Source of the DNA: a virus | Reading direction: 5' to 3' (one strand) | IMG/VR virus record: IMGVR_UViG_3300005095_000141 | Coordinates: 1-60,538 of that record | DNA length: 60,538 nucleotides | Part shown: positions 18,973 to 53,663 of the stretch, piece after piece | Layout: every line of letters begins with the position of its first letter | Position numbering within the stretch: position 1 is the first letter of the stretch | Program-made: the position numbers and the translations under genes | The notes under the pieces: model-generated | What the model saw: the letters and a program-made list of their open reading frames with translations, nothing else | Database searches by the model: none | Told to the model about the DNA's origin: nothing

Positions 18973-19752
18973 ATGGAGCTGGAACCGAAAGAGGCGGTTG
19001 CGGTTCTTCTGGTATCGGATACACATGTAGGTAGGAAGACCGAGACGTATGATACCGACGTGTTTCAGCACAGGATGTCCATGCTTACTAGGTGCGTTAG
19101 AAGGCATAAGAGACTGCTTAGCAGAGGACGTGTAAGCCTTACCGATACGTATGTTGTGTTTTTAGGAGACATTGTTGATGGAGAAGCGATATACCGTAGG
19201 CAGAGATATGAGCAGGAGATAAATATTGATGACCAGATAGACATAGCGGTTGACGAGTTCGAGAAGCTATTACTGGAAGTAGGCGCTACGAAGGCGTACT
19301 GTGTGCCCGGAAACCACGGAAGAAGCAGGCTGGACGGTACTGGGAACTGGGACTACGTGTTCTACCGGTTGCTGAAAGAGAAGACAGGAATAGATATGGA
19401 GATAGGGCATCCAGACCTGTACATAGATATAGATGGATTGACAGCGTATGCTTTTCACGGCGACCAGATACGTATGTACCAGCAGATACCGTTCTACGGG
19501 ATAATGAAGTATGTGGGGCGCCAGTACATGATAAGGCCGTTTGATGCGGCGTTCCTAGGGCATTTCCACGTTAACGCTAAGTACGTGTATAATGGTGTGC
19601 GGATATACTTTAACGGCACGTTGCTTACCGATGACGAGCTTAGCAAGAGGTATGCATTGCGTAGCATACCGGAGTATTGGTTTTTAGCTGTTAGTGGAAA
19701 AAGCATAATTTATGAGGCAAGCATAGGTATGGATGGTGGTGGTTGTATTTGA
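18973..19752 (+). CDS. Calcineurin-like metallophosphoesterase
   Basis: 259 residues, ATG at 18973 after GGAGTG. All five metal-binding blocks are present in order: SDTHVG (residues 17-22), GDIVDG (about 58-63), PGNHGR (about 103-108), FHGDQ (about 156-160) and LGHFHVN (about 195-201). These ligate two metals and hydrolyse phosphoesters (phosphatase or nuclease). It lies between the tail hub and portal genes and overlaps the portal start, an odd place for an enzyme. It may process DNA ends or act as a nuclease in infection; the substrate cannot be told from sequence. Confidence 0.85.
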   Translation: MELEPKEAVAVLLVSDTHVGRKTETYDTDVFQHRMSMLTRCVRRHKRLLSRGRVSLTDTYVVFLGDIVDGEAIYRRQRYEQEINIDDQIDIAVDEFEKLLLEVGATKAYCVPGNHGRSRLDGTGNWDYVFYRLLKEKTGIDMEIGHPDLYIDIDGLTAYAFHGDQIRMYQQIPFYGIMKYVGRQYMIRPFDAAFLGHFHVNAKYVYNGVRIYFNGTLLTDDELSKRYALRSIPEYWFLAVSGKSIIYEASIGMDGGGCI

Positions 19753-21425
19753 GCTTTCTGCGGAGACTGTTCGGAAGAAAAATAGAGAAGCAGGAAAGCA
19801 AGGACTATTCGGCAGTACTGAACCCGTCTATGGTAGCTAACTTTGACAGCGACCGACCAGTAGGTAGCCAGATACCGCTTATGGGGTACGGAACAGCCAG
19901 ACTGCCAGTGCTTCCGCTACCGTTTAAATGGGCGTACAACCTAGCATACAGTAGTGACATACTGAGAACAGTGATACGTGCACTAGTAACAGAAACGTTT
20001 AGGAACGGCATAGCGATAAAACAGAGATACGTTATGAAATGCAAAGTATGCGGAGCAGAATTTCACCACAAAGTAGATAGATGCCCGATATGCGGTTCTA
20101 CCAAGTTCTACGTACCGAACCCGCAGAACAAGCAGTACTTAGAGAAGGTACTGAGGGATGCTAACCTGAACGACGAGGCACTGGTGGATGTATTGATGGC
20201 TATTGACTGGGACTTAAATGTTGTAGATAACGCTTACTTGGTAGTGATTAAGAAGTATTTCTTCGACGACGAAGGCAATATTGTTGGTGCAGAGCCTGTT
20301 GAGGTACTGCGTGCAGACCCCCGGTATATGCAGTTAGTTATGAGTAAGGATGGAAGGCCCGGATATACTGATGATGGTAAGGTAGTTGTGTTTTGCCCGG
20401 AGCATAGGGACGAGTTCGATACCGTTGACCCGGACGAGGTTGGGAAGAAGAAATGTCCCGTATGCGGTAAGACGATGTTGCCTGCGTATTTCAGGTTCTA
20501 CCGTAAGGGCAATTACGTGTTTTATACTGGCGGAGAGGTTCTGCATATTAAGAAGTTCACGTATGGAATAGGGTATGGGTACCCGCCGATAATGTCTATA
20601 CTGTTTAAGGTGCTGATACTGCTTAGGCAGGACTACTTTATGCTGTTAGCATATACGTTGCAGAGAAGTCCCCGTGGAATACTGGTTATTAAGACGCTGA
20701 ACCGTGAAAGCGTGGAGCGTGCATGGAGCTATTTGGAGGAAAGAGCTAGGAATAACCCGTGGATGATATACCCGCTGATAGTTGAGGGAGACCCGAAGGC
20801 TAGGAATATTATTGAGTGGCTAGACCTGAGCTTTAGGCCGCAGGAGTTTAACCTTATGGAGTACAGGCAGGAGCTACGCAGAAGCATAAGTGCGTTGTAC
20901 GGTGTTACGCCGATATGGGTTGGAGAACCCGGTGGGAGTGGACGTGATACGATGCAGGTGCTTGTAACGAACCGTGCGGTTGAAATGGAGCAGAGGCTGT
21001 TTAACGAGAAAGTGTTGCCTTGGCTTACGAAACAGCTAGGAGTGGATGACTGGACGTACCAGCTAATACCGAATGAGATGCGTGATGTTGAGAAGAAGCT
21101 TAAGATACTTGAGGATAAGCTACGGCTTGCAGAGAAGCTTAAGGAGCTTGGATATGTACCGAAGGTTATTAGCAATGAGCTTGGAGAAATAGATATTACA
21201 TGGGAGCCTGCTAAGAAACAGGAGGAAAACGTTGTAGCGAATGTTCTTTCCACCGATACTGATAAGAATAGACGTAGTGCTGAGAGATACTATGAGCGGT
21301 TTGAGACAGGTGGGTTGGAAGGGGAGAACAGGGATGTTAATGCTAAGCCGAGGAAATACGACCAGCGCTTTACCGGGGAGCCGACTGCACCACAGGAAGA
21401 ACTAGAAGGGGAGGATAGGCCGTAG
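19749..21425 (+). CDS. Portal protein with two zinc-ribbon insertions
   Basis: 558 residues, TTG at 19749 overlapping the upstream stop (TTGA). The body matches portal proteins: an N-terminal PLPFKWAYNLAYSSDILRT segment, a central MEYRQELRRSISALYGVTPIW segment (in two parts) with the conserved GVTP turn, and a helical C-terminus. Two CxxC pairs at about residues 98-117 (CKVCG, CPICG) and a second set at about 215-240 (CPEH, CPVCG) look like zinc ribbons. These are uncommon in bacterial phage portals. The portal forms the dodecameric DNA gate at one capsid vertex. The terminases are more than 30 kb downstream. Confidence 0.82.
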   Translation: MSFLRRLFGRKIEKQESKDYSAVLNPSMVANFDSDRPVGSQIPLMGYGTARLPVLPLPFKWAYNLAYSSDILRTVIRALVTETFRNGIAIKQRYVMKCKVCGAEFHHKVDRCPICGSTKFYVPNPQNKQYLEKVLRDANLNDEALVDVLMAIDWDLNVVDNAYLVVIKKYFFDDEGNIVGAEPVEVLRADPRYMQLVMSKDGRPGYTDDGKVVVFCPEHRDEFDTVDPDEVGKKKCPVCGKTMLPAYFRFYRKGNYVFYTGGEVLHIKKFTYGIGYGYPPIMSILFKVLILLRQDYFMLLAYTLQRSPRGILVIKTLNRESVERAWSYLEERARNNPWMIYPLIVEGDPKARNIIEWLDLSFRPQEFNLMEYRQELRRSISALYGVTPIWVGEPGGSGRDTMQVLVTNRAVEMEQRLFNEKVLPWLTKQLGVDDWTYQLIPNEMRDVEKKLKILEDKLRLAEKLKELGYVPKVISNELGEIDITWEPAKKQEENVVANVLSTDTDKNRRSAERYYERFETGGLEGENRDVNAKPRKYDQRFTGEPTAPQEELEGEDRP

Positions 21426-23099: not shown

Positions 23100-23531
23100 A
23101 TGCCAGTGATTGGTAAGCACATAATAGCAGATATGCATGACATTGCATGGATACCGAGTCTTGACGAGCTTGAAAGCATTGTTGTGGAAGCGGCTAAGAG
23201 TGCCGGTATGCATGTTGTTAGTACCGCCAAGTTTCTAGAGGGGAAGCCTGGGGACGAGTTCTATGGGCCGAGCGTGATAGTTATTGTTGTTGAGAGCCAT
23301 ATTGCTGTGCATATATGGGCTTCTTACAGGTTTGCAACTGTTGATGTATATACGTGTGGAGAGAAGAGTGACCCGTACAGGGCGTTTGCATACATACTGA
23401 GCGTGCTGAAGCCCGGTAAGGTTGAAATGTACTATTTGAACCGCAGTAGCGATAAGAAGCTATGTCCGATGCGTATGTCGTGGATGCACAGATATACCGA
23501 CGCCAAAACAGTTACCGGTGGCTGTGAATGA
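23100..23531 (+). CDS. speD: S-adenosylmethionine decarboxylase proenzyme (SpeD)
   Basis: 143 residues, ATG at 23100 after AGGTGGT. The pro-enzyme cleaves itself at a Glu-Ser bond to make the pyruvoyl cofactor and decarboxylates AdoMet for spermidine synthesis. The ES dipeptide is at 65-66 (VVESHIAVHIW). His71 and Cys86 (TCGE) follow at the spacings +5 and +20 seen in the prokaryotic class (Ser63, His68, Cys83 in Thermotoga). The N-terminus GKHIIADMHD also fits. No spermidine synthase gene is visible. It is coupled to the ATP-grasp gene at 23528 (ATGA). Presence of both in the head-gene region is unusual. Confidence 0.88.
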   Translation: MPVIGKHIIADMHDIAWIPSLDELESIVVEAAKSAGMHVVSTAKFLEGKPGDEFYGPSVIVIVVESHIAVHIWASYRFATVDVYTCGEKSDPYRAFAYILSVLKPGKVEMYYLNRSSDKKLCPMRMSWMHRYTDAKTVTGGCE

Positions 23532-24772
23532 GAGTCTTAGTTGTTGATACCGGCTATTTTATGGAGATACCGCTTGAGATAGCATGGCGTGGAGACGCAG
23601 TATTCTACCATGTAGAGTGGCGCAAGGATTTCCCCGACATAGAGAGCTGGGCGCCCGGATACGGGTTTAAAGACATTGTGAAGATAAAGGACTATATGGT
23701 GGAGGTTGACGAGGCAGACCTTATAGTGTTTCCAGACGTTGGTTTTGGTGGAGTAGCTGATTATTTGAGGAGCAAAGGCTATACTGTGTATGGAGCTAGT
23801 TATGCGGGACAGTTACTGGAGCTTAACAGGGAGTTTATGCATAGGACGGCGGTTGAGCTTGGAATAGGCAGGCCGAGAACAGCTATTGCAAAAGGAGTTG
23901 ACGGTATTAAGGCGGTGTTTCGATACGGTGATAACGGGGAGAAGTATGTGAAGATTAGTACTTGGCGTGGAAACATGGAGACGCTTAAAGTGTCTAGCGA
24001 GAAAGAAGTTGATGCATTGATTTCTGGCACGAGGCTAGGCCCCCTTGCAGACGATATAGAGTTTATAGTAGAGGATAAGGTTGGCAATGGAGAAAAAGCG
24101 GTTGAGATAGGTGCTGATTTCTTCTTTAATGGAAGAGAGTTTGTTAGGCCGTACCTGTTTAGCCCCGAAGTGAAGGATACAATAACGGTTGCTAGGTGGG
24201 TTAACAGCAGTGTGCTTGACGAGGAATTCATTGATAAGATAGAGGGCTGGCTTGCAGATACCGGCTATAGAGGACAGATAAGTATTGAGGGGTTCTTGAC
24301 GGAGAGCGGAAGGTTCTACCTGTTAGACGTTACTGCTAGACAGCCGTTTCCCGCTGGCGGGATACTGTGTAAGAGCATAGAGAATTACAGCGAGGTATTG
24401 TACCAGATTGCCAGAGGAGAAGACGTTAGGATTGTGCCGAGGAAAGAGTTTGGAGTGGAGATTGTTATTGGTACTGAGAACACGAAGATGTGGATACCGG
24501 TGCATATAGATGGCGGTATGGATACTGTTAAGCAGGGGATTACGCCGAAGATGATGATATATAAGGACGACGTGTTCTGGCATATACCGGCGCCGACTGT
24601 TGCTGGTGCTGTAGGGCTTGGAGACAGTATTGAGGAGGCGTACCGTAACGCTGTTGCGTTTGTTGACAAGGTGCATGCACAGTTCCTGTATGACGGTAGA
24701 TACGGTATAGAGGAGTTTGAGAAGAGGAAGAAGTTATTAGAAGAGATGGGTTATAATGTTTTTAGTGGATAA
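23528..24772 (+). CDS. ATP-grasp ligase
   Basis: 414 residues, ATG overlapping the speD stop. An N-terminal Rossmann-like part (MRVLVVDTGYFMEIPLEI) is followed by an ATP-grasp core with GYRGQISIEGFLT and FYLLDVTARQPFPAGG. In this core an acidic residue and Asn/Arg-type ligands for Mg-ATP usually lie; the middle Lys strand is EKYVKISTWRG. The overall pattern is closest to the PurD/carbamoyl phosphate synthase-type grasp. Such enzymes join a carboxylate to an amine through an acylphosphate. Tight coupling to SpeD suggests the amine could be decarboxylated AdoMet-derived or a polyamine, but that is inference. Confidence 0.7.
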   Translation: MRVLVVDTGYFMEIPLEIAWRGDAVFYHVEWRKDFPDIESWAPGYGFKDIVKIKDYMVEVDEADLIVFPDVGFGGVADYLRSKGYTVYGASYAGQLLELNREFMHRTAVELGIGRPRTAIAKGVDGIKAVFRYGDNGEKYVKISTWRGNMETLKVSSEKEVDALISGTRLGPLADDIEFIVEDKVGNGEKAVEIGADFFFNGREFVRPYLFSPEVKDTITVARWVNSSVLDEEFIDKIEGWLADTGYRGQISIEGFLTESGRFYLLDVTARQPFPAGGILCKSIENYSEVLYQIARGEDVRIVPRKEFGVEIVIGTENTKMWIPVHIDGGMDTVKQGITPKMMIYKDDVFWHIPAPTVAGAVGLGDSIEEAYRNAVAFVDKVHAQFLYDGRYGIEEFEKRKKLLEEMGYNVFSG

Positions 24773-24793
24773 AGAATATTGAGGAGTGATGCG

Positions 24794-27148
24794 TTGAGCC
24801 GCCCAGAACAGTTTAAGATAACAGACCCTGACGAACGAATAGTTGCTGGATGGGCAAGCGTAGAAATAGTTGATTTACAGAAAGACATTATACCGGTCAA
24901 AGTGCTTGAAAGAGCAATGTACAAGTACATGGACAGAGGAGGGCACATACTGTATCATCACAGCAATGTACCGGTAGGCAAGGTGCTTAGATGGGAGGTT
25001 AAGAAGCACCCGGAGACAGGTAAGTACGGTGTTTGGATAGAGGCGAAGATTTTCAACGAGTATGAGACAGACAATATTGTATGGAACGCCATTAAGCAGG
25101 GCAAGATAAAGGGGTTCAGCATAGGCGGTGTGGGTAAGGAGAAGAAAGTTAAGATAAAGGATGCAGATGGAAAGGAACAGGAAGTTGACCTTGTAACCGA
25201 TATTGAGCTTAACGAGATAAGCTTGGTAGAGGAGCCTGCTAACCCGCTGGCTAAGATTGAGCAGATAAACTGGTATGCTAAAAGCAATGATGCTGTAAAA
25301 AAGAGTGTGAACAGGATAACCTCTGACTATAGTGTTGTTGACGATGATATTGTTAGGATAGTGTTTGTCATTGAAGGAGATAATGTAGGAGAGCTTGAGG
25401 ATAAGGTCAGGGACATACTGGTGGCTGTTTCTAGGGCTGGAGACTATGGCGGTAGAGAAGTGTTTGTTACCGCTTCTGGCAATAAGATAATGGCTGACAT
25501 ACTGGTGAAGAAGGATTTCTTTGATATTGCGAAGAGATATGCTGACGAGCTGTTTAGACGTGATTTCGGCGTTGATATAGACTGGACTGTAAAGGGTATT
25601 GTGAAGGAAGCTACTGATATTGAGAAGGCGTGTAAGGACAGGTATTTAGTATGCAGTGGTGACGAGTGCCACTTTAAAGAGATGACGTGCCCCGATAACC
25701 CGAACCATAAGAGCAGGTTCTGTGGATGTGTACGGTACATGATGACCTGTAACGGTAAGAGCTTGGAGAGTGCTAAGAAAATATGTGCGAAGATATACCA
25801 TGAGAAGTACGGTAAGAGCCTTAGCAAGGATATTGACTGGTACGAGGACATTATTAGCGGTAAGAAGTACATTGTTGAGATAGAGACCGTAGAGGGAGAG
25901 GATGGGGAGAACCTGTTTATTGCTAGGATACGCAACCCGGACAATGGAGACATAATTGTGGAGACAGAGCCGCTTTATACCGAGGAGGAAGCTATTGATG
26001 TTGCGTATGACTTGCTTGAGAGCAAGGAGGGTATGGTTAAGGCGCTTGTACCGATTATGAAGCCGTTTGCAGGGTTTAAGAACTTTGACGAATGTGTTGA
26101 TACGATGCGTAAGCGTGGATACGATAAGGACAGTGCACGCAGAATATGTGGATGGCTGTACTGGAGATATGAGCGTGGAGACAAGAACAAGAGTGTTGAC
26201 GACATGCTTAAAGAATTTATGGATAAGAAGAAGAGACTGCTACGCACGTTCAAGATAGACCTGTACAACATACCGAGCGCTATAGCACGCAGGATAGAGA
26301 ACGTGGTTGACTCTGTGTTTGTAACGCCGGTATGGAAGTTTTATATACCTATAACGAGATACGTTAAGACGGGTGCAGAAAGTATGGCTGACGAAGAACC
26401 TAAGACCGAGAAGAAGCCAGTCAAGGAAGAAGAAGTCACAATTACAGTTACAGACCCGACTACTGATGAGAAGAAGAAAGAGAATGACGAGGAAGGAGGA
26501 AAGGGTGTGAAGGAAGAACTAGCGGAGATAAAGGCGCTTCTTACACAGCTTATAGAGACGCTTGGGCGTAGGGAGACTTCTGTACAGGACGCAGAGAAGA
26601 GCATTGAGGAAACAAGCGGGAGACAGCCCGGAATTGCTAAGGGCAGGATAGACAAGCTTGAAAAAGCGGTTCTAGAGCTTACCGATATTGTGGAGAAGAT
26701 AGCCGAGAAGGTAAACGAAATTGAAAAGAAGATTACCAAGCAGGCAGTAACTACTGACAGCACTGCAAACGATAACCCGACCTATGGAGGGACACCGATT
26801 AAGCCCGGCGATACGGTAACGATTGTCGAAGCACCGTTTAACAGGCCGGACGCTAAGGGTAAGACCGGGACTGTTGTAAGCGTTGACCTTGACAAGAACA
26901 CCGCTGTTATTAGGCTTGAAGACGGTACCGAGCTGGTAGTAGGTCTTGACAAGCTAGAGCTTGCAAAGAGCATTGAGCCTGCACCTGCTGTTACAAAGGT
27001 AGCTAAAGGAGTAGTTGCGCCTAGACCGTTCGTTGCCAATACCGATGTTAATACCGGCGGGGACGAGAGACTAGAGATTATACAGAAGATACTTCGTGGA
27101 GAGCTGAAGCCAATAGATATTTTAAAGCAGAAGAAAGATATTATTTAG
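24794..27148 (+). CDS. Prohead protease fused to scaffold-like and zinc-containing regions
   Basis: 784 residues, TTG at 24794 after GAGGAGTG. Residues 15-150 match XkdF-like prohead proteases with an assemblin-type Ser-His-Glu set: His55/56 in LYHHSNVPVG, Ser109 in IKGFSIGG and Glu near 141 in NEISLVEEPANP. About residues 290-345 are Cys-rich (CSGDECHF, CPDNPNH, CGC). About 420-460 hold a FDECVDTMRKRGYD motif common in such proteins. Then comes a long acidic coiled coil (about 570-660) and an SH3/KOW-like strand set (about 680-740). The coiled coil likely serves as scaffold. Located directly upstream of the capsid gene. Confidence 0.75.
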   Translation: MSRPEQFKITDPDERIVAGWASVEIVDLQKDIIPVKVLERAMYKYMDRGGHILYHHSNVPVGKVLRWEVKKHPETGKYGVWIEAKIFNEYETDNIVWNAIKQGKIKGFSIGGVGKEKKVKIKDADGKEQEVDLVTDIELNEISLVEEPANPLAKIEQINWYAKSNDAVKKSVNRITSDYSVVDDDIVRIVFVIEGDNVGELEDKVRDILVAVSRAGDYGGREVFVTASGNKIMADILVKKDFFDIAKRYADELFRRDFGVDIDWTVKGIVKEATDIEKACKDRYLVCSGDECHFKEMTCPDNPNHKSRFCGCVRYMMTCNGKSLESAKKICAKIYHEKYGKSLSKDIDWYEDIISGKKYIVEIETVEGEDGENLFIARIRNPDNGDIIVETEPLYTEEEAIDVAYDLLESKEGMVKALVPIMKPFAGFKNFDECVDTMRKRGYDKDSARRICGWLYWRYERGDKNKSVDDMLKEFMDKKKRLLRTFKIDLYNIPSAIARRIENVVDSVFVTPVWKFYIPITRYVKTGAESMADEEPKTEKKPVKEEEVTITVTDPTTDEKKKENDEEGGKGVKEELAEIKALLTQLIETLGRRETSVQDAEKSIEETSGRQPGIAKGRIDKLEKAVLELTDIVEKIAEKVNEIEKKITKQAVTTDSTANDNPTYGGTPIKPGDTVTIVEAPFNRPDAKGKTGTVVSVDLDKNTAVIRLEDGTELVVGLDKLELAKSIEPAPAVTKVAKGVVAPRPFVANTDVNTGGDERLEIIQKILRGELKPIDILKQKKDII

Positions 27149-27169: not shown

Positions 27170-28369
27170 ATGCCAAGAATACTTACAGCAAAAGACATAG
27201 AGTTATTCTACGCAGGAGCACCGGGACACCCGTTCCTAGCACTGGGAGACGTAGCCTACATTACAAAGGCGGCAGGAGCGGTTACAACTGACCTTTCACC
27301 GCAGTTTATGAACTACGTATATGGAGCGCAGGTCTGGTACCAGATAAACATGGAGGCTAATGCGTTTGCCGCACTGCCGAAGACTACATGGCCGAGAAGC
27401 GGATGGCGTGTAATTACCAGCCTAAGCACTACGCCGGACAACATTGCCATTGCACAGACAGGTGCTTTACCGGACAGTGTAAGACCTAATGTTGAGACCG
27501 TTAAGACACCGCCAAAAGTAGAGGCGCTGACATTCGAGGTAAGCGAAGTAATAGAAGCACTTGCAAACATGAGCCAGGACGATATTTACGGCAGTGTTGA
27601 CCAGCTAAGAACATATTACGGCACAGAGTTTGCAAAGCTACTGAACATGCAGTTACTGCACAAGGCAATAGGAAACAGTGGAAGCACTTCAGAGGCAAGC
27701 GCAGGATATAAGCTTGAGAGCCTTGACAGGATAGTGTCTAGCTACAGCGAGAGCCAGATTGGAAGTTCGCTTTCAACGCCAGACCCTGTGGGTGCGGCTG
27801 TAGATGTATATGGTATTGACAGGCACAGTGCTGAGAGCTGGGCTGACAGCGTAGTACTGCATAATAACGGACAGCTACGTGCGCTTACAGACGACCTTAT
27901 ACGTGAACTGATACAGGCTACTACGACAAAGGGAGCACACCCGACAATGTTCATTACCGGTTACGACACGTATGCTACAATGCTTGGACTGTACATGACA
28001 TACGTAAGATACATACCGATGAGCGAGAAGCAGGTGCAGTTTGGACTAGAAGGCGTTAAGACCGCCAAGGGCATTAATGCCGGTGTAAAGGTAGCCAGCC
28101 TATACGACATACCGGTTATACAGGCTGTGAACACGCCGAACGACGGAGACGGAAGCATAAGCAGAATATACCTGCTAGACACCAGCGACTACGAGGGCAA
28201 CGGACTACCGAGACTAGGAATAGGAGTAGTAAGACCGATAGAGTACTTCGAGAGCCGTGACTTCGTACTGCTAAACAAGTTCGTGATAAAAGGAGTATAT
28301 AGATTCGTAGGAGAAACAATAGCAAGAGGACTAGCATACCAGGGCAAACTCCGCGATCTCTCTGCTTAA
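27170..28369 (+). CDS. Major capsid protein, HK97 fold
   Basis: 399 residues, ATG at 27170 after GGTGAATAGGAAG. HK97-like features are a hydrophobic/Ala-rich N-terminus, ALTFEVSEVIEALANMS (N-arm and spine helix region), an insertion rich in Ser, and the P-domain and A-domain strands PTMFITGYDTYATMLG and VASLYDIPVIQA. The end RDFVLLNKFVIKG then VGETIARGLAYQG fits. No N-terminal delta domain is apparent; the scaffold is in the upstream protease gene. A/C-ending codons dominate, unlike most of the genome, consistent with high expression. Confidence 0.85.
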   Translation: MPRILTAKDIELFYAGAPGHPFLALGDVAYITKAAGAVTTDLSPQFMNYVYGAQVWYQINMEANAFAALPKTTWPRSGWRVITSLSTTPDNIAIAQTGALPDSVRPNVETVKTPPKVEALTFEVSEVIEALANMSQDDIYGSVDQLRTYYGTEFAKLLNMQLLHKAIGNSGSTSEASAGYKLESLDRIVSSYSESQIGSSLSTPDPVGAAVDVYGIDRHSAESWADSVVLHNNGQLRALTDDLIRELIQATTTKGAHPTMFITGYDTYATMLGLYMTYVRYIPMSEKQVQFGLEGVKTAKGINAGVKVASLYDIPVIQAVNTPNDGDGSISRIYLLDTSDYEGNGLPRLGIGVVRPIEYFESRDFVLLNKFVIKGVYRFVGETIARGLAYQGKLRDLSA

Positions 28370-28444: not shown

Positions 28445-29253
28445 ATGTCACATGATAATAGATGGAATGCGTATGTTGCTGGATATTTTGATGGTGATGG
28501 TTCTGTTTGGATAGCACGTCATAAGTGTAAGCAGTGCAGGAGTGGTTATACGTATTTTTGGTGGTTGAGATTGTTTCTGTTGATAGGGATGTTCTTGACT
28601 TTATTGCTGGTGTTTATGGTGGCAAGGTTTATCCGAAGAGGAAAGTTGGTGCGTGGAAGTGGGTTGCATATAGTAATGTGGCGTATAATTTTTTGCTGAA
28701 CGTGTATAGGTATTTACAGATTAAGAGGAGACAGGCAGACCTAGCTATGATGTTTCAAGAAAGGATGATTAAGGGAAATAATTATATTTCTGATGATGAA
28801 ATGAAATGGCGTGAATGGGTTAGAAAAGAGATATCTGTGTTAAAGAAAATGTATGATGTTTTTGATTTTGCTGAGTTCGATACTGATGAAGAAGCTAGAC
28901 AATATATTGCTGGTTTGTTTGATGCGGAAGGATATGTAGGTGTATCTGAACGGAACAGAGGAAGTATGTATTTGCGAGTGGAAATTGGAAATAGATGTCT
29001 TAAATTACTTGAGTGGTTGAAAAGCATATATGGAGGGTCAATATACTGGAGCAGGAGGGCATACGTTTTTGAATTGGTATCGTTTGGTGCTAAGAGGTTG
29101 TTGGATGATGTTTTACCGTATTTGCATGTTAAGAAGGAGAGAGCTAAGATTGCACTTGAGTATCAGTCTATTACTAAGAAGGGGAGACAAGATTATGCTA
29201 TATTGAAAAGAAGAAAGAAGCTTGCTCGCTTATTGAAAGAACTTAATTATTAG
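28445..29253 (+). pseudogene. LAGLIDADG homing endonuclease, frameshifted
   Basis: Two LAGLIDADG motifs are visible: NAYVAGYFDGDGSV near the start and RQYIAGLFDAEGYVGV in the middle, as in monomeric two-domain enzymes. The reading frame shifts by -1 between about 28555 and 28570, in a TTTTTGGTGG stretch. The first frame gives YTYFWW; the second continues with EIVSVDRDVLDFIAGVYGG, which is what should follow. One missing base would restore a protein of about 269 residues. It is free-standing, immediately after the intact capsid gene, and has more A/T-rich codons than its neighbours, suggesting recent transfer. Sequencing error is the alternative to decay. Confidence 0.8.
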
Positions 29254-42835: not shown

Positions 42836-43927
42836 ATGTATGTTCCTGCATGGAGACCGGTTATGAGTGCTGATAGGAAGAAAAGATTTCTTGCGTATGT
42901 AAAGGACATACTTGGCGGTACTGTGTTTAGGAATGGAAAATACGTTGCAGAGCTTGAAAAGACATTTGCGAAGAGACATGGATATAGGCATGGAATAGCT
43001 GTTAGTAGTGGAGGAGCAGGTATTGAGGCGTTACTGTATTATTACCGTGTGCGTGGATATAGGAACGTTGTTGTGCCTGCGGTTAGTTTTTCCGCCGACT
43101 ATACGATACCGAGCGAGCTTGGATACAATGTTGTTGTAGTTGATACGTTGAAGGATAAGCCGTTGATAGACCCGGATAAGGTACGGAAGGCAGTGCTGTA
43201 CTATGGCAGGAGCGTTGTGATAGCGATACCGTATTTTGGATATGTTGACCGTGAATGGGTTAAGGCACTGCTTGAGGTGAAAGAGGAGAACCCCGGCATG
43301 GAGATTATATGGGATACTGCGCACTGCTATGGTGTGGAGCTTGGCCGATACGGTATTGACCCCGCAGTTATAAGCATGTACACGACCAAGATAAGCAGTG
43401 GAGACAATGCGGGCATGGTTCTTACCGATAATATGATGCTTAGGGATAAGCTGTTACTGATACGCAGGTACGGTATTGACGGTGACGGCAGAACCGTGTA
43501 TGTTGGGAACAACTTTGGTCTTAGCGAGTTTAGTGCGGCGTTCATACTGGCTGGAATGGATGATGCTGAGAAAAGAATAGAGTCTGGACGTGCAGGATAT
43601 GATGTGATTAAGGACGAGTTGCCCGTGTACCCGGAGAACGCTACTGATGACTACAACTACTATGTGGTTGCAGTTCGCGTTAACGATAGGAAGGAGGCTG
43701 AGAAGGCGCTGATTGAGAACGGTATAGAGCCTTGGACACACTATGTACCGGATACTGTTGATAGGGAGAAGGTGCGTGTGCTTCTACGTGTATTTGTGTT
43801 TCCCGGCAAAACAGTTAATGCGCACAGGTTTGTAGAGCAGAACGTGTTTTTGTCCCCCGGCATACTGTATGAGTACCGTGTGCTTGAAAAAGTAGTGGAT
43901 ATTCTTAGACCGTATGCGAGGTGGTAG
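42836..43927 (+). CDS. DegT/DnrJ/EryC1-type sugar aminotransferase
   Basis: 363 residues, ATG at 42836 after GGTGGT. Family marks: GIAVSSGGAGIEALLY (the S-G-T-x-A-L loop), VVVPAVSFSADYTI (the P-x-x-T/S-F motif), WDTAHCYGVE (PLP-binding Asp160) and SMYTTKISSGDNAGMV with Lys185 as PLP Schiff base. It makes an amino-NDP-sugar from a keto-sugar. The stop overlaps the next gene. Confidence 0.85.
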   Translation: MYVPAWRPVMSADRKKRFLAYVKDILGGTVFRNGKYVAELEKTFAKRHGYRHGIAVSSGGAGIEALLYYYRVRGYRNVVVPAVSFSADYTIPSELGYNVVVVDTLKDKPLIDPDKVRKAVLYYGRSVVIAIPYFGYVDREWVKALLEVKEENPGMEIIWDTAHCYGVELGRYGIDPAVISMYTTKISSGDNAGMVLTDNMMLRDKLLLIRRYGIDGDGRTVYVGNNFGLSEFSAAFILAGMDDAEKRIESGRAGYDVIKDELPVYPENATDDYNYYVVAVRVNDRKEAEKALIENGIEPWTHYVPDTVDREKVRVLLRVFVFPGKTVNAHRFVEQNVFLSPGILYEYRVLEKVVDILRPYARW

Positions 43928-43929
43928 AT

Positions 43930-44898
43930 GTGGAGAACGTGCTTGTAACAGGAGGTTCTGGACAGATAGCTTCGTATATAGTTGAGGAGTTCGTTAGGCG
44001 TGGATACAGGGTATTTGTACTTGACCCTGCACCGCCGCTTAGGGAATGGGCTGGCCTGATACATGATGATAAGATAGTGTATAAGCATGGTACAAGCTAT
44101 GATGTGCACCAGATATTCGACCTTGCAACATACCGGTTTAAGTATATTGTTGACTGCGGTGCATTGCTTGGAAGCGAGGAGCTAACGCCTAGGCTTGACA
44201 GTGCCGCCGCATACGACTTTATTGGTAGCAGGAACGTGTTCGAGCTTGCCAGATACATTGGTGCGAAAGTATTCCATATAAGCATAGAGTTTGCAGGGTA
44301 TGGCTTTACCGACGGCTATAGTGTGACGAAGATGGCGGCGCTTAGGACGGCACAGGAATACGCTAAGAAGTACGGAGTAAATATTGTTGCGGCGACCGTG
44401 CACCACATATTTAGCCCTAGGCAGAAACTGTTACCGGCTAGAAAGATTATGCCGACACTGATATCGTATGCAATGACAGGTGCTAAGTTCAGAATATTTG
44501 GAAGCCCGGACAAGATGATGGATTTACTGTATGCCGGCGACTTTGCAAAGGTTGTAGTGGAGCTTCTGGAGTCTGATAATACGAAGACGGCCGATAAGCA
44601 CGTATATGATATTGGGAGTGGAGAAGGAATACGGCTTGAAGACCTTGTGATTCGCACATACTATGAATGCGGGCATGAGCCGAACTATACTGTGACCGAA
44701 GACTTTAGATTCCAGAGGCCAGACCCGTACCGTGTAGCTAGGAATGACTGGGTTGACGATGTTGAACATGTACCGATGCTTAGGAGCATAGATAAGATGC
44801 TGAACTGGCTTGTACGACAGTATAAGAAGAAATATAGTATGGAGGACTTTGAGCTAGCAGTAGAGGTTTACGAGCAGAGGCATAGATGGGGTGTATAA
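43930..44898 (+). CDS. NAD-dependent nucleotide-sugar epimerase/dehydratase 1
   Basis: 322 residues, GTG at 43930 after GAGGTGGT (GTG 43921 also possible). Extended SDR: N-terminal NVLVTGGSGQIASYIVEEFV (GxxGxxA Rossmann), Ser in the HISIEFAGYG area and Y-x-x-x-K in GYSVTKMAAL. It may act as a 4,6-dehydratase or epimerase of the NDP-sugar. Its stop overlaps the methyltransferase gene start. Confidence 0.82.
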   Translation: MENVLVTGGSGQIASYIVEEFVRRGYRVFVLDPAPPLREWAGLIHDDKIVYKHGTSYDVHQIFDLATYRFKYIVDCGALLGSEELTPRLDSAAAYDFIGSRNVFELARYIGAKVFHISIEFAGYGFTDGYSVTKMAALRTAQEYAKKYGVNIVAATVHHIFSPRQKLLPARKIMPTLISYAMTGAKFRIFGSPDKMMDLLYAGDFAKVVVELLESDNTKTADKHVYDIGSGEGIRLEDLVIRTYYECGHEPNYTVTEDFRFQRPDPYRVARNDWVDDVEHVPMLRSIDKMLNWLVRQYKKKYSMEDFELAVEVYEQRHRWGV

Positions 44899-44899
44899 C

Positions 44900-45601
44900 G
44901 TGAAGTGGTGCCACGGAGACCCTAGATGCCCGTATTATTTTGAGCAACTGGTGAAGATAGCCAAGTACATGGTGGATACTGTTGGAAGGGATGAGGGTAA
45001 GTCAATACTGGATGTTGGTGCGGGGGATGGTTTGCTTGGTCATCTGCTACGCATATATGGGTTTAGAGGACGCATAGACGCTGTTGAGATAGATAATAAG
45101 AAAGCCTATGTGCTGAAGCAGAGCGGTATATACGGCCGTGTGTTTGAGAATGATTTTCTGGAGATGCGGTATTTGGAGTACGTTAACTACCATAACAGCT
45201 ATGATGCTGTTGCGATGATAAACTTTCTGTATGCATTTGGAGGAGTACTGGTGAACCTTGTGCTTGACACGGCTAGTTTGCTTGTGAAGAGACGTGGACA
45301 CGTGTTTTTTACGTTTACGAACAGGGAGTCGCCGATAACGAAGTTTCTGGCAGAGCGTGGTATTAAGAAGTCGCATACGCAGAGCAGAGAAGAAATAATT
45401 GATGCGTGTTTTAGGGCAGGTCTAGACCCTAGGTTTGTGCACGACCTTAGCATGTGGATAGTGCCGTTCAGTACCGGAGATAAGTGGACTGGAGAGCTAT
45501 ATACTGGTGCGAAGGCTATGCTGAAATGGATTAAGTTGGCTGTTAAGTATAGGAAGTTCGGGCCGATAGAGTATTTTGTCGACGCAGTACCGTATTACTG
45601 A
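44900..45601 (+). CDS. SAM-dependent methyltransferase
   Basis: 233 residues, GTG at 44900 (GTG 44891 overlaps the previous gene). Class I motif I SILDVGAGDGLLGHLL (about residues 37-52), motif II AVEIDNKKAYVLKQ and a later HNSYDAVAMINFLYAFGG. The N-terminus has CHGDPRCPYYFEQL, likely sugar-binding. Probably methylates the sugar or glycan made by this operon. Confidence 0.75.
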   Translation: MKWCHGDPRCPYYFEQLVKIAKYMVDTVGRDEGKSILDVGAGDGLLGHLLRIYGFRGRIDAVEIDNKKAYVLKQSGIYGRVFENDFLEMRYLEYVNYHNSYDAVAMINFLYAFGGVLVNLVLDTASLLVKRRGHVFFTFTNRESPITKFLAERGIKKSHTQSREEIIDACFRAGLDPRFVHDLSMWIVPFSTGDKWTGELYTGAKAMLKWIKLAVKYRKFGPIEYFVDAVPYY

Positions 45602-45611
45602 GGCGGTGTGC

Positions 45612-47138
45612 ATGGATGACCTTGGAAAACTGAGAGTACTTGTGACACAGTATTATTATTCAGCGAGAGACCTTACCGGGGTAAGCATGTTTAACTGGTA
45701 TAGGGCGCTGTATAAGGCGAATGAAGATAGGATGATTATGTATTTGGAGGTGCCGAGGGAATGGTGGAAGGAATGGGGAAAAGCATTTGTGGAGTATGAT
45801 ATTGATGATGATGAACTTGAAAAATACAGGAAAATGATTGGAGATAATGTAAGGTTTATACGTCTTGCCAGAGCTAGGGAGATGAAGGAGTGGGAGACAT
45901 ACATACCGACTGAGGATGAGCACAGGTTTGTAAGGAACATTCGTTCTATGCCGATTGATGTTATACTGAGCGGTACGTATGGCTATACGTGGTTGCCTGT
46001 TATTTCACAGCTTGAAAGGAAGAGTGCATATTATAGTGAGGTACGTGTACCGGTTATTCATTTTCAGCACGAGACGTGGAGAGACTATATTAGCATGCAG
46101 ATGCTTGGAACTAGGCAGTTAAAGACCATAATACTGATGAACATGGTGTTGTCTGATATGGTGTTTGTATTTAACGAGCCTGACAAGATAGCTGTGCTTG
46201 AGGAAGCTAAGAAACTTCTGTCGCATTCTGTCTATAACGATTTGAAGAAGAAGATAGAGATTGTGCACCCGATATACCCGTACTACGAGATTGACGATAA
46301 GACCGAGAGCTATATTGAGAGTAGGAAGGAACGGATTAGAAGAGAGAAGAAGGTTGTGTTTTACCATGCTGGCACGCCTGAAAAGAAGAGAAGGTTGCAC
46401 GTATTTGCCGATATATTGAAGAAACTGGTTGATGATGGTAGTGTAGATGCTAAGTTTAAGATGATAATAAGTAGTGCTGGTACGTATGAGAAAGAGCTAA
46501 AGAAGTTTTTTGGGCATGAAAGCATTGAAATGCTGTTTGCATTGCCTAGGCATAGGTTGATTGAAGAGATGCGTACTGCTGATATTGCTGTGTGTCTGAG
46601 CATTTACTACGGTACTGGTCTTGCGTGTCTAGAGGCTAGTGCTAGTGGTATGCTACCAATATACTGGAGGATACCGGATACTGTTGATAGGGTTCCGCCG
46701 AAGTACCCGTACCGTGTGGTTGATGAGAAGGAGCTGGAAGAGGTTGTTAAACAGCTTGGTGACCCGGCAGAGTTTCTTAAGGTGTATGATGAGTGGGCGC
46801 ACAAGGTTGCTAGGCATGTACAGAAGAATTTCGGTAGGGAAGAGGCTAGAAGGATATTTGACTTGATAGTGAAGCTGAGGAAACGATTTGTTGATGATTA
46901 CAGCGAGAAAAAGATACTGTTGTGGGATGCGTTTAAAGACGCAGTTGACAGCATACCGAGTGGATGGAAGGTTGACCATGAAAGGCTGATTTCGATTGTT
47001 TCTGCTATGACGAAGAAGGGCAAGAGGCCGAAAGAGATTAGGTCGCTTATTACCGAGATTGGACTGCGTATTCTTGCACATAAGTATGGACTGCGTGATA
47101 TAGGGGATATAGACAAGATTGTGTGGTGGAAGCCATGA
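45612..47138 (+). CDS. Glycosyltransferase, GT4-like (GT-B fold), 1
   Basis: 508 residues, ATG at 45612 after GAGGCGGT. The C-terminal donor-binding domain is clear: VVFYHAGTPEKKRRLHVFADIL, KFKMIISSAGTYE, then ADIAVCLSIYYGTGLACLEASASGMLPIYW (the E-x7-E region of GT-B enzymes). The N-terminal acceptor domain is divergent and longer. A C-terminal helical extension follows. Pair with 47135, which overlaps it by 4 bases. Confidence 0.75.
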   Translation: MDDLGKLRVLVTQYYYSARDLTGVSMFNWYRALYKANEDRMIMYLEVPREWWKEWGKAFVEYDIDDDELEKYRKMIGDNVRFIRLARAREMKEWETYIPTEDEHRFVRNIRSMPIDVILSGTYGYTWLPVISQLERKSAYYSEVRVPVIHFQHETWRDYISMQMLGTRQLKTIILMNMVLSDMVFVFNEPDKIAVLEEAKKLLSHSVYNDLKKKIEIVHPIYPYYEIDDKTESYIESRKERIRREKKVVFYHAGTPEKKRRLHVFADILKKLVDDGSVDAKFKMIISSAGTYEKELKKFFGHESIEMLFALPRHRLIEEMRTADIAVCLSIYYGTGLACLEASASGMLPIYWRIPDTVDRVPPKYPYRVVDEKELEEVVKQLGDPAEFLKVYDEWAHKVARHVQKNFGREEARRIFDLIVKLRKRFVDDYSEKKILLWDAFKDAVDSIPSGWKVDHERLISIVSAMTKKGKRPKEIRSLITEIGLRILAHKYGLRDIGDIDKIVWWKP

Positions 47139-48619
47139 GGATACTTGTAATACCGCATGTGGCGAGCAAGAACCTTGAAGGAGAGAGTGTGGCGCTGGTG
47201 TTTGCAGAGTATATGAAGAGCATTAAGAAATATGCTGAGAAAAACGGTGAAAAAGTATGGTTTTACGTTGTGTTGCCCAGAGGAGTTACCGGAGAGAAGA
47301 TATATGAGGATGTAGGGAACACTACGGTTGTGTTTGAGAACAGACGCCTTAAGCAGTTCTATACCGAGATTGACGCTGTGGATGTTGATACGCTTGAACT
47401 GTTCGGTGCACGTACCGGTATTTACCCTGTTGACGCAGTTATAACGAGTAAGACTGGATTTGCATTGATGATGACGAAGTACCTTAGTGATTTTAGGTAT
47501 GCGCAGGAGAGTCTTGACTACCTTAGGATACCGGTAGTGATAATTGAGGACAGGGCATTTGGAAGGAAGAACACGCATAACCTTGTAGATGGAGTGGAGT
47601 TTATGCTTAGAGCGATGAGCTATGCAACGCATTATACCGTGTTTATGGATGAGTTCGAGTTCGAGGAAGCGTATGATGCCAGCAAGCAGTACTTGTCTAA
47701 GGCGATGCTACGACGCTTTATGAAGCACGCAATAATGTACCCCGGTGTACGGTGCAGAGAGATAGACAGGATAATACATGGTGTGAAAAAACGGGAGAAG
47801 TTCACGCTGTTCTGGGGAGGAAGGATTTCTGCACAGAAGAGACCCGGCTTTGTACTGGACGTGTACAATAGGTTTTACGAGCTTGGATACGATGTCGACA
47901 TAATTGTTACTACACCGCACGAGGCAGACGTGAAAACCGATGTAATACCGAAAGCACTGAGGAGAAACAGCAAGATAAAAGTACTGTATAACGTAAGCAG
48001 AGAAGAATACCTTAAGCTACTGGCTAGTAGCCATGTGTTTCTGAGTGGTAGCTTGTACGAGGGCTTCACGATTGGTCATACCGAGGCTGGCTATACTGGT
48101 GTGCCTGTGATTGTACCGAATAGGCCGTGGAGCAGATTGATATTTGGCAGTGACTATAAGCTGATGTATGACCCTAGGAGCGAGAAGGAGGCACTGGCAG
48201 TACTGATATGGTGTTATGAGAACTATGATGAGTGCGTGGAGATTAGTAGGAAGACTAGGGAGAGGATAAGGGAATTGTTTGATGCGGAGAAGACGCATGA
48301 GATACTGTATAATGTGGTGAAGAAAGCATATACTGAGACCGTGCTTGACAATATTGACCAGCTAATAATAGGCAGAGGGATAAAAGAGGTGCTTGACACA
48401 GTGATTTCAGAGGCTAGGAGCAGAGGATACGATAAGATTTCGCTTAGGATGCTGATAATGCTGATGAAGAAGTATATGCGTGTAAGCAACAGATGGACTG
48501 ACCCCCGCCTAGGAATGCCTAGTATGTGGGCGCTGTACCAGTACATTAAGAACGTGCTTGGATACCGTGACACATGTGATTCAGAAGAGCCTGTTTTTAA
48601 TATTGAAGTAGATAATTAA
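47135..48619 (+). CDS. Glycosyltransferase, GT4-like (GT-B fold), 2
   Basis: 494 residues, ATG at 47135 overlapping the upstream stop. Motifs TLFWGGRISAQKRPGFVLDVY, NVSREEYLKLLASSHVFLSGSLYEGFTIGHTEAGYTGVPVIVP (in parts) give a GT4 signature with E-G-F-x-x-x-x-x-E. It has a helical C-terminal extension of about 100 residues similar in style to the one at 45612 (both mention an IKEVLDTVISEARSRG or KKGKRPKEIRSL-like helix). Both may glycosylate a virion protein or host glycan. Confidence 0.82.
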   Translation: MRILVIPHVASKNLEGESVALVFAEYMKSIKKYAEKNGEKVWFYVVLPRGVTGEKIYEDVGNTTVVFENRRLKQFYTEIDAVDVDTLELFGARTGIYPVDAVITSKTGFALMMTKYLSDFRYAQESLDYLRIPVVIIEDRAFGRKNTHNLVDGVEFMLRAMSYATHYTVFMDEFEFEEAYDASKQYLSKAMLRRFMKHAIMYPGVRCREIDRIIHGVKKREKFTLFWGGRISAQKRPGFVLDVYNRFYELGYDVDIIVTTPHEADVKTDVIPKALRRNSKIKVLYNVSREEYLKLLASSHVFLSGSLYEGFTIGHTEAGYTGVPVIVPNRPWSRLIFGSDYKLMYDPRSEKEALAVLIWCYENYDECVEISRKTRERIRELFDAEKTHEILYNVVKKAYTETVLDNIDQLIIGRGIKEVLDTVISEARSRGYDKISLRMLIMLMKKYMRVSNRWTDPRLGMPSMWALYQYIKNVLGYRDTCDSEEPVFNIEVDN

Positions 48620-48638
48620 ACGTGTATGGGTGGTCTGC

Positions 48639-49424
48639 ATGCAAGACATAAAACGTGAAATAAAAGAAGTTCCTGTGTCCCAGATTATACCGCTTGAAGA
48701 GAACATTAGAGAGATGAGTGACGAGGAATTTAATGCGCTGTGCAAGAGCATAGAGGAAAACGGGTATGCGGAGCCGATACAGGTTGTTGAGACGCCTGAC
48801 GGTAAATACCGTATAGTGAACGGCCAGCACAGGTATGAAGCACTTGTAAATGTGTTTGGAGTTGATACCGTAACAGTTATAGTGCTTGGCAGGATGTGTA
48901 AGGAAGGAGAGGACCCTGAGAAGGATGGTTGCTGGGACGAGTACCGTTACTGGGCGGAGGTGATAAGGCTTAACAACATACGTGGTGACTGGAAGAAGCC
49001 GGCGCTTGCAAAGAAGATATTTGAGCTGTGGGAGTACTATAAGAAGAAAGGATATGACAGGCTTGACCTGAAGGAGCGTCTAGGTTTTACCGGGGCTAAG
49101 ACGTTCTTTGACAAGTTGTTTGAGGATGTGAAGAAGTCGTTACCGAAGGATATTGCAGAGGAGCTTGAGAAGAAAAAGGACAAGATAGATACTGTGGAGG
49201 ATTTGAGCAGGATAATAAACGAGATAATGAGGAAAAGCGGGAACACCGTGAAGTACGGATACCTGATATTCAGCCTTGGAGGAAAACAGCACATACTGGT
49301 ACGTGCGTTGCCGGAGCTGTTCTCGGTGGTGCGGGATATACTGGACTACTGCAAGTATAATGGGAGGAATGCGTCTGAAGTACTGTATGAACTGCTTAGT
49401 GGATGGGAGGAGAAACTGCAATGA
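48639..49424 (+). CDS. ParB/Srx-like nuclease-domain protein
   Basis: 261 residues, ATG at 48639 after GGTGGT. The ParB N-terminal domain: EVPVSQIIPLEENIREMSDEE (in parts), SIEENGYAEPIQVVE, YRIVNGQHRYEALVN (the G-x-H-R motif). An EVIRLNNIRGDW segment follows, then a helical DNA-binding part with GFTGAKTFFDKLF. Known roles are partition, nuclease or regulator of DNA modification. It sits inside the sugar operon and overlaps the downstream epimerase gene by 4 bases, which is odd for a partition gene. Confidence 0.75.
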   Translation: MQDIKREIKEVPVSQIIPLEENIREMSDEEFNALCKSIEENGYAEPIQVVETPDGKYRIVNGQHRYEALVNVFGVDTVTVIVLGRMCKEGEDPEKDGCWDEYRYWAEVIRLNNIRGDWKKPALAKKIFELWEYYKKKGYDRLDLKERLGFTGAKTFFDKLFEDVKKSLPKDIAEELEKKKDKIDTVEDLSRIINEIMRKSGNTVKYGYLIFSLGGKQHILVRALPELFSVVRDILDYCKYNGRNASEVLYELLSGWEEKLQ

Positions 49425-50314
49425 CGCTGACCGTGCTTCTTACCGGTAGCGAGGGTGTTCTTGGGAAGAGAATAAAGGAACTGTTGCCGAAGATGATTGA
49501 TGCGAGGATAATAGGTCTTGACATAAAGGAGACTGCCGATATTGTGGGTGATATACGGAACTATGATGTACTTGTGTCCGCTATGAAAACATATAGACCG
49601 GATGTTGTACTGCATTTTGCGGCTTTGACAAGCCCGATAGAGAGTACGTACCGTGAAATAGAGTATTATGACGTGAACATGATTGGTACTGCGAAGCTTG
49701 TGAAGATAGTGCCGAGGGATGCCCTGTTTATATTTGCGAGTAGCTGTGCAGTATATGGGAATGCGTACGATGTTCTTAAGAGACCGGTGATTCTTAGCGA
49801 TGCATGGAGGTTTACGCCGCTAAGCCCGTATGGTCTGAGCAAGCTGTTTGCAGAGAAAATAATACGTAGCCATAGAGACGATGCGGTTATACTGAGGTTT
49901 GGAAACGTGTATAGCCCGTATGACGATAAGTATGTGTTCTGGAAGATGTTTAGCAACAAGGTGTTCGTTCTTAACGACCCTGATGCTGTAAGGGATTTTG
50001 TAAGTGTGGATGACCTGATACGGCTGATTGTGAAGATAATACGTAGATGGGATGCGGGCGAATACGTTGGAGGTACGTATAATGTTGGTGGTGAACCGCT
50101 TAAGATGGCTGATGTGGTAGAGATTGCTAGGAAAAAGGCTGGATGGCCGGAGAAAGTGGTTATTGGCAATGGTTTGAAGCCTGGAGAGTTTAAGCGCATG
50201 GTTCTGAACATTACAGCTACTAGGGATGCATTTGACTGGTCGCCTATTGACAGGCTGGAAAACTATATAGATGTTCTAGACCGATACTTTAGAATGAGGT
50301 CTGCGGGGAGATAA
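49421..50314 (+). CDS. NAD-dependent nucleotide-sugar epimerase/dehydratase 2
   Basis: 297 residues, ATG at 49421 overlapping the upstream stop. Extended SDR with VLLTGSEGVLGKRIKELL, VLHFAALTSPIES, FASSCAVYGNAYD and SPYGLSKLFAEKII (Y-x-x-x-K). The S-S-x-A-V-Y-G block is typical of UDP-glucose 4-epimerase-like enzymes. With the genes at 41997-48619 it completes a nucleotide-amino-sugar and glycan pathway. Confidence 0.82.
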   Translation: MTLTVLLTGSEGVLGKRIKELLPKMIDARIIGLDIKETADIVGDIRNYDVLVSAMKTYRPDVVLHFAALTSPIESTYREIEYYDVNMIGTAKLVKIVPRDALFIFASSCAVYGNAYDVLKRPVILSDAWRFTPLSPYGLSKLFAEKIIRSHRDDAVILRFGNVYSPYDDKYVFWKMFSNKVFVLNDPDAVRDFVSVDDLIRLIVKIIRRWDAGEYVGGTYNVGGEPLKMADVVEIARKKAGWPEKVVIGNGLKPGEFKRMVLNITATRDAFDWSPIDRLENYIDVLDRYFRMRSAGR

Positions 50315-52993: not shown

Positions 52994-53188
52994 GTGCCCG
53001 AAGACCTTAACACGCTAGCCGAGAAGCTGAACATGATTGTGAAGCTATTGGCTGGTAAGAAATGTGAATGCTACTGTGACGAGGAGCTTGATAACCTTGT
53101 TAAGGAGTTGCAGGAGACTGTTAACCTGCTTATTGACTGGGCAACAAAGGCTGGTATGGGGGTGATTGGCAGAGATGTTGAAGGCTGA
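52994..53188 (+). CDS. Hypothetical helical protein with CECYC motif, 64 residues
   Basis: Not recognised. GTG at 52994 after GGTGGT. Helical with CECYC in the middle (KKCECYCDEEL), a possible metal clamp or hinge. It overlaps the cysteine-protease gene by 14 bases; possibly its partner or regulator. Confidence 0.5.
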   Translation: MPEDLNTLAEKLNMIVKLLAGKKCECYCDEELDNLVKELQETVNLLIDWATKAGMGVIGRDVEG

Positions 53189-53663
53189 TATTGGTACGAT
53201 TGCACAGTATGTGAAGCAACTGTATGACTGGTATGTGCCGCCGTTTAAGCCAAAGACCGTCAATATTGGTTGGCAGGGAATGTATAAGGTGCTTAGCAAG
53301 TTACCGAACTTTAGCCCTGCAAAGGTGCTTCGTACTGATGGTAATTACTATGCTACTGATTATGAGACGTTTAAGAAGATTATTGCTTGGGACTGGACGA
53401 ACACTAGGCAGTACATTGTTGATACGTTTGACTGTGACAAGTTTGCTCTGTACTTTAAGGTTAGGATGGCGATAAACTTCGGCATTAACGCTGTACCGGC
53501 TGTGTTTGACTATGACGGTGGACACGCATATAATGTTGTAGTGTTTACCGATAAGGATGAGCCGTACCTGTACGAGCCGCAGAACGACAGGCTGTTCTTA
53601 CCGACTAAGGAGAACCTTAAGAAGCCGTATGTTCTTGGACAGCACTACATACTGATTGTGTGA
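53175..53663 (+). CDS. Predicted papain/transglutaminase-like cysteine protease
   Basis: 162 residues, ATG at 53175. The pattern FDCDKFAL with Cys87, GGHAYNVVV with His117 and YEPQND with Glu134 and Gln136 gives a Cys-His-(Glu/Asp) order. It resembles small phage and bacterial transglutaminase-like peptidases (D-C-D-x-F-A ... G-G-H-A-x-N-V ... E-P-Q). No signal peptide is clear. Beside the holin candidate it could cleave a peptide in the host wall or S-layer anchor. It could instead process virion proteins. Confidence 0.62.
   Translation: MLKADIGTIAQYVKQLYDWYVPPFKPKTVNIGWQGMYKVLSKLPNFSPAKVLRTDGNYYATDYETFKKIIAWDWTNTRQYIVDTFDCDKFALYFKVRMAINFGINAVPAVFDYDGGHAYNVVVFTDKDEPYLYEPQNDRLFLPTKENLKKPYVLGQHYILIV

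Follow-up and report, generated by a model that had tools for sequence, protein, structure and literature searches.

The window analysed here is the whole of an IMG/VR virus record of 60,538 bases, in which a SpeD-family gene and a gene for a PurD-like ATP-grasp ligase lie between the portal gene and the prohead protease gene (Table 1). A first-pass annotation, made from the letters alone, had described these two genes as coupled by an ATGA between portal and capsid protease, and this was confirmed by the sequence and by profile searches. Judging from the overlap, the two genes are translationally coupled. The best matches of the major capsid protein (MCP) were those of the haloarchaeal viruses HCTV-1 and HVTV-1 and of the Methanofastidiosa virus vir519, so the window was assigned to an archaeal tailed virus. 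As the first-pass annotation had stated, no aminopropyltransferase or spermidine synthase (PF01564) was found in the record, the same search being positive in control genomes, and no member of the agmatinase/arginase family (PF00491) is encoded in the record.

Elsewhere in the window, a LAGLIDADG homing-endonuclease-like ORF (28534-29253) was observed right after the MCP gene. A sugar-modification cluster (42836-50314) comprises a DegT aminotransferase, two epimerases, a methyltransferase and two glycosyltransferases, and a ParB_N/GmrSD-like gene (48630-49424) is located within it. Proteins with a Lectin_C_term or agglutinin-C-like domain are encoded in the window (53166-53663) and in another archaeal virus contig (L110:3621-4271).

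Table 1. Genes and predicted functional residues of the SpeD/ligase locus (positions are those of the window)
Feature	Position	Strand	Remarks
Portal protein gene, upstream	19743..21425	+	phrog_18178, E 2e-40
SpeD-family pyruvoyl decarboxylase gene	23100..23531	+	143 aa; crenarchaeal arginine-decarboxylase-like type
Ser66 codon	23295..23297	+	Aligned with S63 of T. maritima SpeD; predicted site of self-cleavage, from which the pyruvoyl group would form
His71 codon	23310..23312	+	T. maritima H68, kept in the window; alignment
Ala74-Ser75 codons	23319..23324	+	Correspond to Pro71-Glu72 of AdoMet decarboxylases; AdoMetDC-diagnostic proline gone
Cys86 codon	23355..23357	+	Predicted catalytic Cys (T. 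maritima C83); invariant in homologues
ATGA overlap	23528..23531	+	Ligase ATG inside the SpeD stop (GAATGA), 4 nt
PurD-like ATP-grasp ligase gene	23528..24772	+	414 aa; assigned from AF2 model, fold matches and catalytic residues
Lys142 codon	23951..23953	+	Invariant; motif K-I-S-x-x-R-G-x-x-E-T
Glu254 codon	24287..24289	+	Invariant; likely Mg-ATP ligand
Asp267 to Arg271 codons	24326..24340	+	D-x-x-x-R; invariant, predicted active-site pair
Prohead protease/scaffold gene, directly downstream of ligase	24779..27148	+	PF04586, E 2.5e-8; phrog_9427, 3.5e-19
Major capsid protein gene	27170..28369	+	phrog_24667, 3.7e-33

The window SpeD matched PF02675 (E 1.6e-24), and its score against TIGR03330, the NCBIfam equivalog model of AdoMet decarboxylase (AdoMetDC), passed the cut-off (3.8e-26; 91.6 bits against 75.65). 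In the alignment, S66, H71 and C86 occupy the positions of S63, H68 and C83 of T. maritima SpeD, and self-processing of the window protein is plausible for this reason. The earlier statement that the active residues are complete was upheld for self-processing, but not for the residues typical of AdoMet binding, as the HTWPE motif of AdoMetDC reads HIWAS in the window, P71 being replaced by Ala and E72 by Ser. In the T. maritima SpeD complexes, E72, the residue that is Ser in the window protein, touches the ribose of AdoMet. A proline is reported to be completely conserved in the true AdoMet decarboxylases and not in the arginine decarboxylases derived from them (PMC10407285); from the logo legend of that paper, we read this residue as the HTWPE proline.

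The nearest proteins to the window SpeD were from Thermoprotei (Desulfurococcales, Ignisphaera, Culexarchaeum), with 47-51% identity. These homologues share the motif HTW[IVT]EY, and the loop that precedes their GVSV strand is longer; the group was read as the crenarchaeal arginine decarboxylase (ArgDC) type. Of the 14 Thermoprotei genomes checked, 10 encode a further SpeD, either a second or a third, which typically has HTWPE and lacks the loop, and by identity the window protein was closer to the Pro-lacking paralogues than to the HTWPE paralogues of the same genomes. The SpeD tree placed the window sequence inside the crenarchaeal SpeD clade (support 99/97), on a long branch whose exact place is uncertain. 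A third SpeD paralogue of Sulfolobales (L040/L042), weakly paired with the window in the tree, was discarded as a relative of the pair; it lies among host genes and has no ligase.

The counterpart among known enzymes is the crenarchaeal pyruvoyl arginine decarboxylase SpeDA of the S. solfataricus type (Giles and Graham 2008, as cited in PMC10407285). The likeness consists of the identity given above, the Ser, His and Cys residues, the longer pre-GVSV loop and the loss of the diagnostic proline. Unlike SpeDA, the window protein is viral, lies on a long branch, has E72 replaced, is coupled to a ligase and is found in a record without the agmatinase family. The missing proline is not decisive by itself, since some crenarchaeal ArgDC-type proteins keep it (HTWPDY, HTWPLQ). 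Taken with the nearest relatives, arginine is the likely substrate of the window SpeD, and AdoMet, the substrate envisaged in the first-pass annotation, is an unlikely one. Spermidine synthesis by the window virus is also unlikely, because the AdoMet-pocket residues are missing, the nearest proteins are of the crenarchaeal ArgDC type and an aminopropyltransferase is absent.

The product of the second gene matched no Pfam family at E<=1 and had no significant match in PHROG, and against the purD model TIGR00877 it scored 15.8 bits, far below the cut-off of 288 bits. Despite the lack of a Pfam match, the first-pass assignment to ATP-grasp was borne out by the AlphaFold model (pLDDT 95.1, pTM 0.92; 48 relatives used as alignment). 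In a Foldseek search of the PDB, the best matches were all phosphoribosylamine-glycine ligases (GARS), full length, with E 2e-21. In VIA-align, the top 13 rows were GARS (Z 29-33), with 1vkz at Z 32.8 over 355 residues (rmsd 2.9, 19% identity). The profile of the ligase family also reached PurD by sequence (2e-9). As modelled, the window ligase is a member of the ATP-grasp superfamily with a full-length PurD/GARS fold. It differs from PurD in its identity of at most 19%, in its score far below that of the family and in forming a virus-specific clade in head-gene blocks.

The ligase residues K142, R147, G148, E151, T152, E193, D197, E214, E254, D267 and R271 were conserved in all 79 distinct relatives, and dN/dS was 0.06-0.17 in most pairs of related viruses, which reflects purifying selection. 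In the PurD reaction, an amino-acid carboxylate is phosphorylated and then joined to an amine, and an amide-forming reaction with an amine would for this reason be expected of the viral ligase. An apparent intein was observed in the ATP-grasp domain of a PurD-like protein of an archaeal genome (L097, L114:4941-7250, minus strand).

Searches with the single ligase sequence in viral, genome and phage records returned nothing. A two-sequence profile, made from the window ligase and a homologue encoded on a virus contig of 25 kb in the bin of a Thermoprotei genome, recovered 27 viral contigs where the single-sequence queries had failed, and a six-sequence profile raised the set to 81 uncultured viral loci. 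A SpeD-like ORF (120-145 aa) was present just upstream of the ligase in 28 of these 81 loci. In the other 53, no recognisable SpeD was found within the DNA examined, so the ligase can presumably work without SpeD. When viral contigs were picked by the SpeD-like sequence alone, 29 of the 30 had the ligase adjoining downstream, and the thirtieth ends 2 bases past SpeD; several contigs are common to the ligase-picked and SpeD-picked sets. A SpeD/ligase overlap of the window type was observed in L170, L175, L181, L182, L195, L204, L206, L213, L214, L221, L224, L231, L233 and L234, some of which come from overlapping contigs. The pair, for which the first-pass annotation had proposed a search in other viral genomes, is thus not isolated and is conserved in relatives.

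An archaeal relative on a shorter contig, L235, was found with the archaeal-type SpeD and has the order SpeD, ORF, ligase, protease and MCP, with identities to the window of 42% for the ligase, 32% for the protease and 48% for the capsid protein. Its SpeD reads HTWYD, the proline being lost and the Ser, His and Cys kept. The pair was not found in the head blocks of vir519 and HCTV-1, the nearest annotated archaeal viruses, and single-sequence scans of viral contigs with the portal protein and the MCP returned nothing. No spermidine synthase was found in the 11 pair viruses checked. None of 50,697 isolate phage records and 72,556 plasmids gave a match to the ligase, the isolate-phage queries including three family members. 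The first-pass remark that the pair is unusual in a virus agrees with this result for the ligase, but SpeD itself is common in marine phages (PMC9992855) and the pair is widespread in uncultured viruses. Viral contigs with SpeD only (L001-L019) were rejected as relatives of the pair; they are T4-like cyanophage-type contigs with an HTWPE SpeD beside baseplate genes.

A single clade of paired ligases was rejected by the AU test (p 0.0006). The two kinds of virus also differ in their SpeD, which is crenarchaeal in type in the archaeal viruses and belongs to a separate divergent clade in the phages. For these two reasons, the pairing probably either arose repeatedly or was lost on several occasions, and in either case it is selected. 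In two archaeal virus contigs (L110:11342-13326, L141:9411-11320), the ligase is preceded, at a distance of 11-14 bases, by an Amidase_3/endolysin-like gene and not by SpeD.

The divergent SpeD-like proteins of the phages aligned with cellular SpeD in hhalign with a probability of 96.7% (E 3.4e-10). The one member that was modelled (pLDDT 92) had T. maritima SpeD as its best match, and the SpeD-like profile, which includes three archaeal-type SpeDs, matched 2iii at 3.3e-13. Despite low overall identity, S63, T69 and C83 (T. maritima numbering) were invariant in all 38 viral SpeD-like proteins, whereas H68 is Asp in 33 of the 38 phage members. The dN/dS values between related viruses were mostly 0.04-0.27, again reflecting purifying selection. 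By predicted fold, pyruvoyl Ser and catalytic Cys, these partners are assigned to the SpeD family. Regarding activity in homologues, the invariant Ser and Cys speak for a retained pyruvoyl enzyme, but with Asp in place of H68, these proteins may process themselves or decarboxylate in another way or not at all, or may act as partner subunits. This substitution in most members is the main reason for caution about the function of the phage proteins.

In the bacterial phages, the gene for the terminase large subunit is followed by the SpeD-like gene, the ligase gene, small ORFs, the portal gene and, further on, the major capsid gene, the neighbours being identified by profile as TerL (phrog_38, phrog_979), portal (phrog_156) and capsid (phrog_334). 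In freshwater phages without SpeD, the ligase is located between an ORF of about 740 aa, without a PHROG match and taken to be the portal, and an ORF of about 562 aa with weak terminase similarity (E 1e-3). The position of the pair among head genes suggests a late function in the particle, and it is the sole tie of the product of the pair to the virion.

The explanation that best accommodates these results is a two-enzyme decarboxylase/ligase unit of head-gene blocks, to which a probability of roughly 0.6 is assigned. The SpeD-family protein would cut itself at Ser66 to form the pyruvoyl cofactor and would decarboxylate a small amino acid to an amine, most likely, in the window, arginine to agmatine and not AdoMet. 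The PurD-like ligase, translated from the overlapping start, would then phosphorylate a carboxylate with ATP and join the amine to it as an amide. That a decarboxylase and an amide ligase act as one pathway is held to be just as probable as the explanation as a whole. The product would probably serve particle assembly or DNA packaging, because the unit lies among terminase, portal, protease and capsid genes of otherwise unrelated viruses; provided that there is a single decarboxylase/ligase pathway, the chances of a role in the particle are put at about even. Two forms of this product are conceivable: a head protein with a carboxylate that carries the amine as a tag, or a small conjugate of the amine that stays with the DNA. 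The ligase stands alone in 53 of the 81 loci, which the divergent SpeD was never seen to do; most simply, the ligase would be the core component, and SpeD would provide it with an amine in those cases where the host provides none. A more specific version is tentative and is considered doubtful at present: tailed viruses of archaea and bacteria would have acquired, on more than one occasion, a conserved amine-tagging step of particle assembly, in which a PurD-derived ligase links the amine made by a SpeD-derived decarboxylase to a protein of the head or to a packaged component. If true, this step is without a described counterpart.

Among the alternatives, auxiliary metabolism survives best, though it is unlikely. 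Here SpeD would raise agmatine, putrescine or spermidine in the host, the PurD-like gene would boost purines, and the operon would be a matter of convenience only. Phage SpeD, pyruvoyl ODC and ADC are documented (PMC9992855), the viral protein clusters reported as shared at hydrothermal vents include PurD (PMC12043954) and the ligase has the PurD fold. However, the divergent phage SpeD-like gene was never seen without this ligase (29 of the 29 cases with DNA downstream), the overlap is recurrent and the ligase falls far short of the purD cut-off. The pair is also set in head genes and not in nucleotide metabolism, in a record lacking both spermidine synthase and the agmatinase family.

A slightly smaller likelihood is attached to the SpeD-like protein being a non-catalytic, prozyme-like subunit that binds the ATP-grasp ligase and activates or positions it, with no amine made. 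That SpeD-fold proteins can be activators is known from the T. brucei AdoMetDC/prozyme (5tvm, 6bm7), and the frequent Asp at H68 and the unconserved substrate pocket of the phage members would fit such a role. An invariant pyruvoyl Ser and catalytic Cys would be needless in a scaffold, though, and none of the three catalytic residues is lost in the proteins of the window and L235.

It is improbable that the pair modifies viral DNA, with a modified base or nucleotide precursor as the acceptor of the amine and hypermodified DNA in the particle as the result. Polyamine-type base modifications do occur in phages, as with putrescinyl-thymine in the DNA of phage phiW-14, and terminase and portal genes adjoin the pair in phages, but no thymidylate-synthase-like or hydroxymethylase gene was found among about 40 of the larger window ORFs, searched with Pfam. 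Least probable is a true AdoMet decarboxylase with an unrelated ligase, whose product would be used by a host spermidine synthase to give spermidine that condenses the packaged DNA: the equivalog cut-off is passed, the catalytic triad is intact and many marine phages carry a functional AdoMetDC (PMC9992855), but Ala and Ser replace P71 and E72, of which the proline is reported to be completely conserved in true AdoMetDC (PMC10407285), the crenarchaeal ArgDC-type paralogues are closer, and the coupling to the ligase is tight.

The decarboxylase/ligase unit was also compared with described systems. Virus-encoded SpeD homologues with ODC or ADC activity have been reported (PMC9992855), and neofunctionalised SpeD is widespread in cells (PMC10407285); an ATP-grasp partner of SpeD is mentioned in neither paper. 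The pair proteins resemble the phage enzymes of PMC9992855 in being of the SpeD family, virus-encoded and probably directed at amino acids rather than AdoMet, and differ from them in that their clade is partnered by a ligase and keeps Ser and Cys with mostly Asp for H68. In fungal E-64 clusters, a dedicated decarboxylase is expected to feed agmatine, putrescine or cadaverine to amide-bond-forming enzymes, and ATP-grasp enzymes activate an acid by phosphorylation before coupling it to an amine (PMC12568646). The logic of a dedicated amine supply with an amide-forming ligase would be the same as that proposed for the viral pair; in the fungal clusters, unlike the viral pair, the decarboxylase is PLP-dependent, the setting is secondary metabolism and an ANL-type synthetase, rather than the ATP-grasp enzyme, attaches the amine. 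A thaumarchaeal paper (PMC6563490) was discarded as a precedent, PurD being merely an integration site there.

The literature search, the scope of which did not extend to the amidoligase survey of Iyer 2009, where an earlier mention is possible, returned no description of the SpeD/ligase pair. Dedicated amine supply with an ATP-grasp ligase is known elsewhere; the viral head-block setting is new, and there is a real chance that the novelty extends further. Viral SpeD is usually read as auxiliary polyamine metabolism. The SpeD relative of this pair probably works for the virus particle and not for the polyamine pools of the host, because it is bound to a PurD-like ligase in the head block across very different viruses. 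If the product were an amide formed on a protein of the capsid, portal or scaffold, virus assembly would include a covalent modification not described before; if it were a small conjugate, the virus would be making its own cation to package DNA. The pair also puts a name to a large ligase family without a match in the isolate phage records.

Two further arrangements were observed in T4-like phage contigs. A divergent SpeD paralogue (IETSNICAHF...VFSC) lies in tandem with a canonical SpeD at L236:4623-5327 and at the corresponding position of L237-L261, and this divergent copy matched the SpeD profile of the pair clade at about 1e-16. In L012:4196-4783, L013:5371-5958 and L016:977-1564, an ORF of about 196 aa (phrog_3577) with ATP-grasp-like motifs is located just upstream of a canonical speD, which is possibly a separate SpeD/ATP-grasp coupling.
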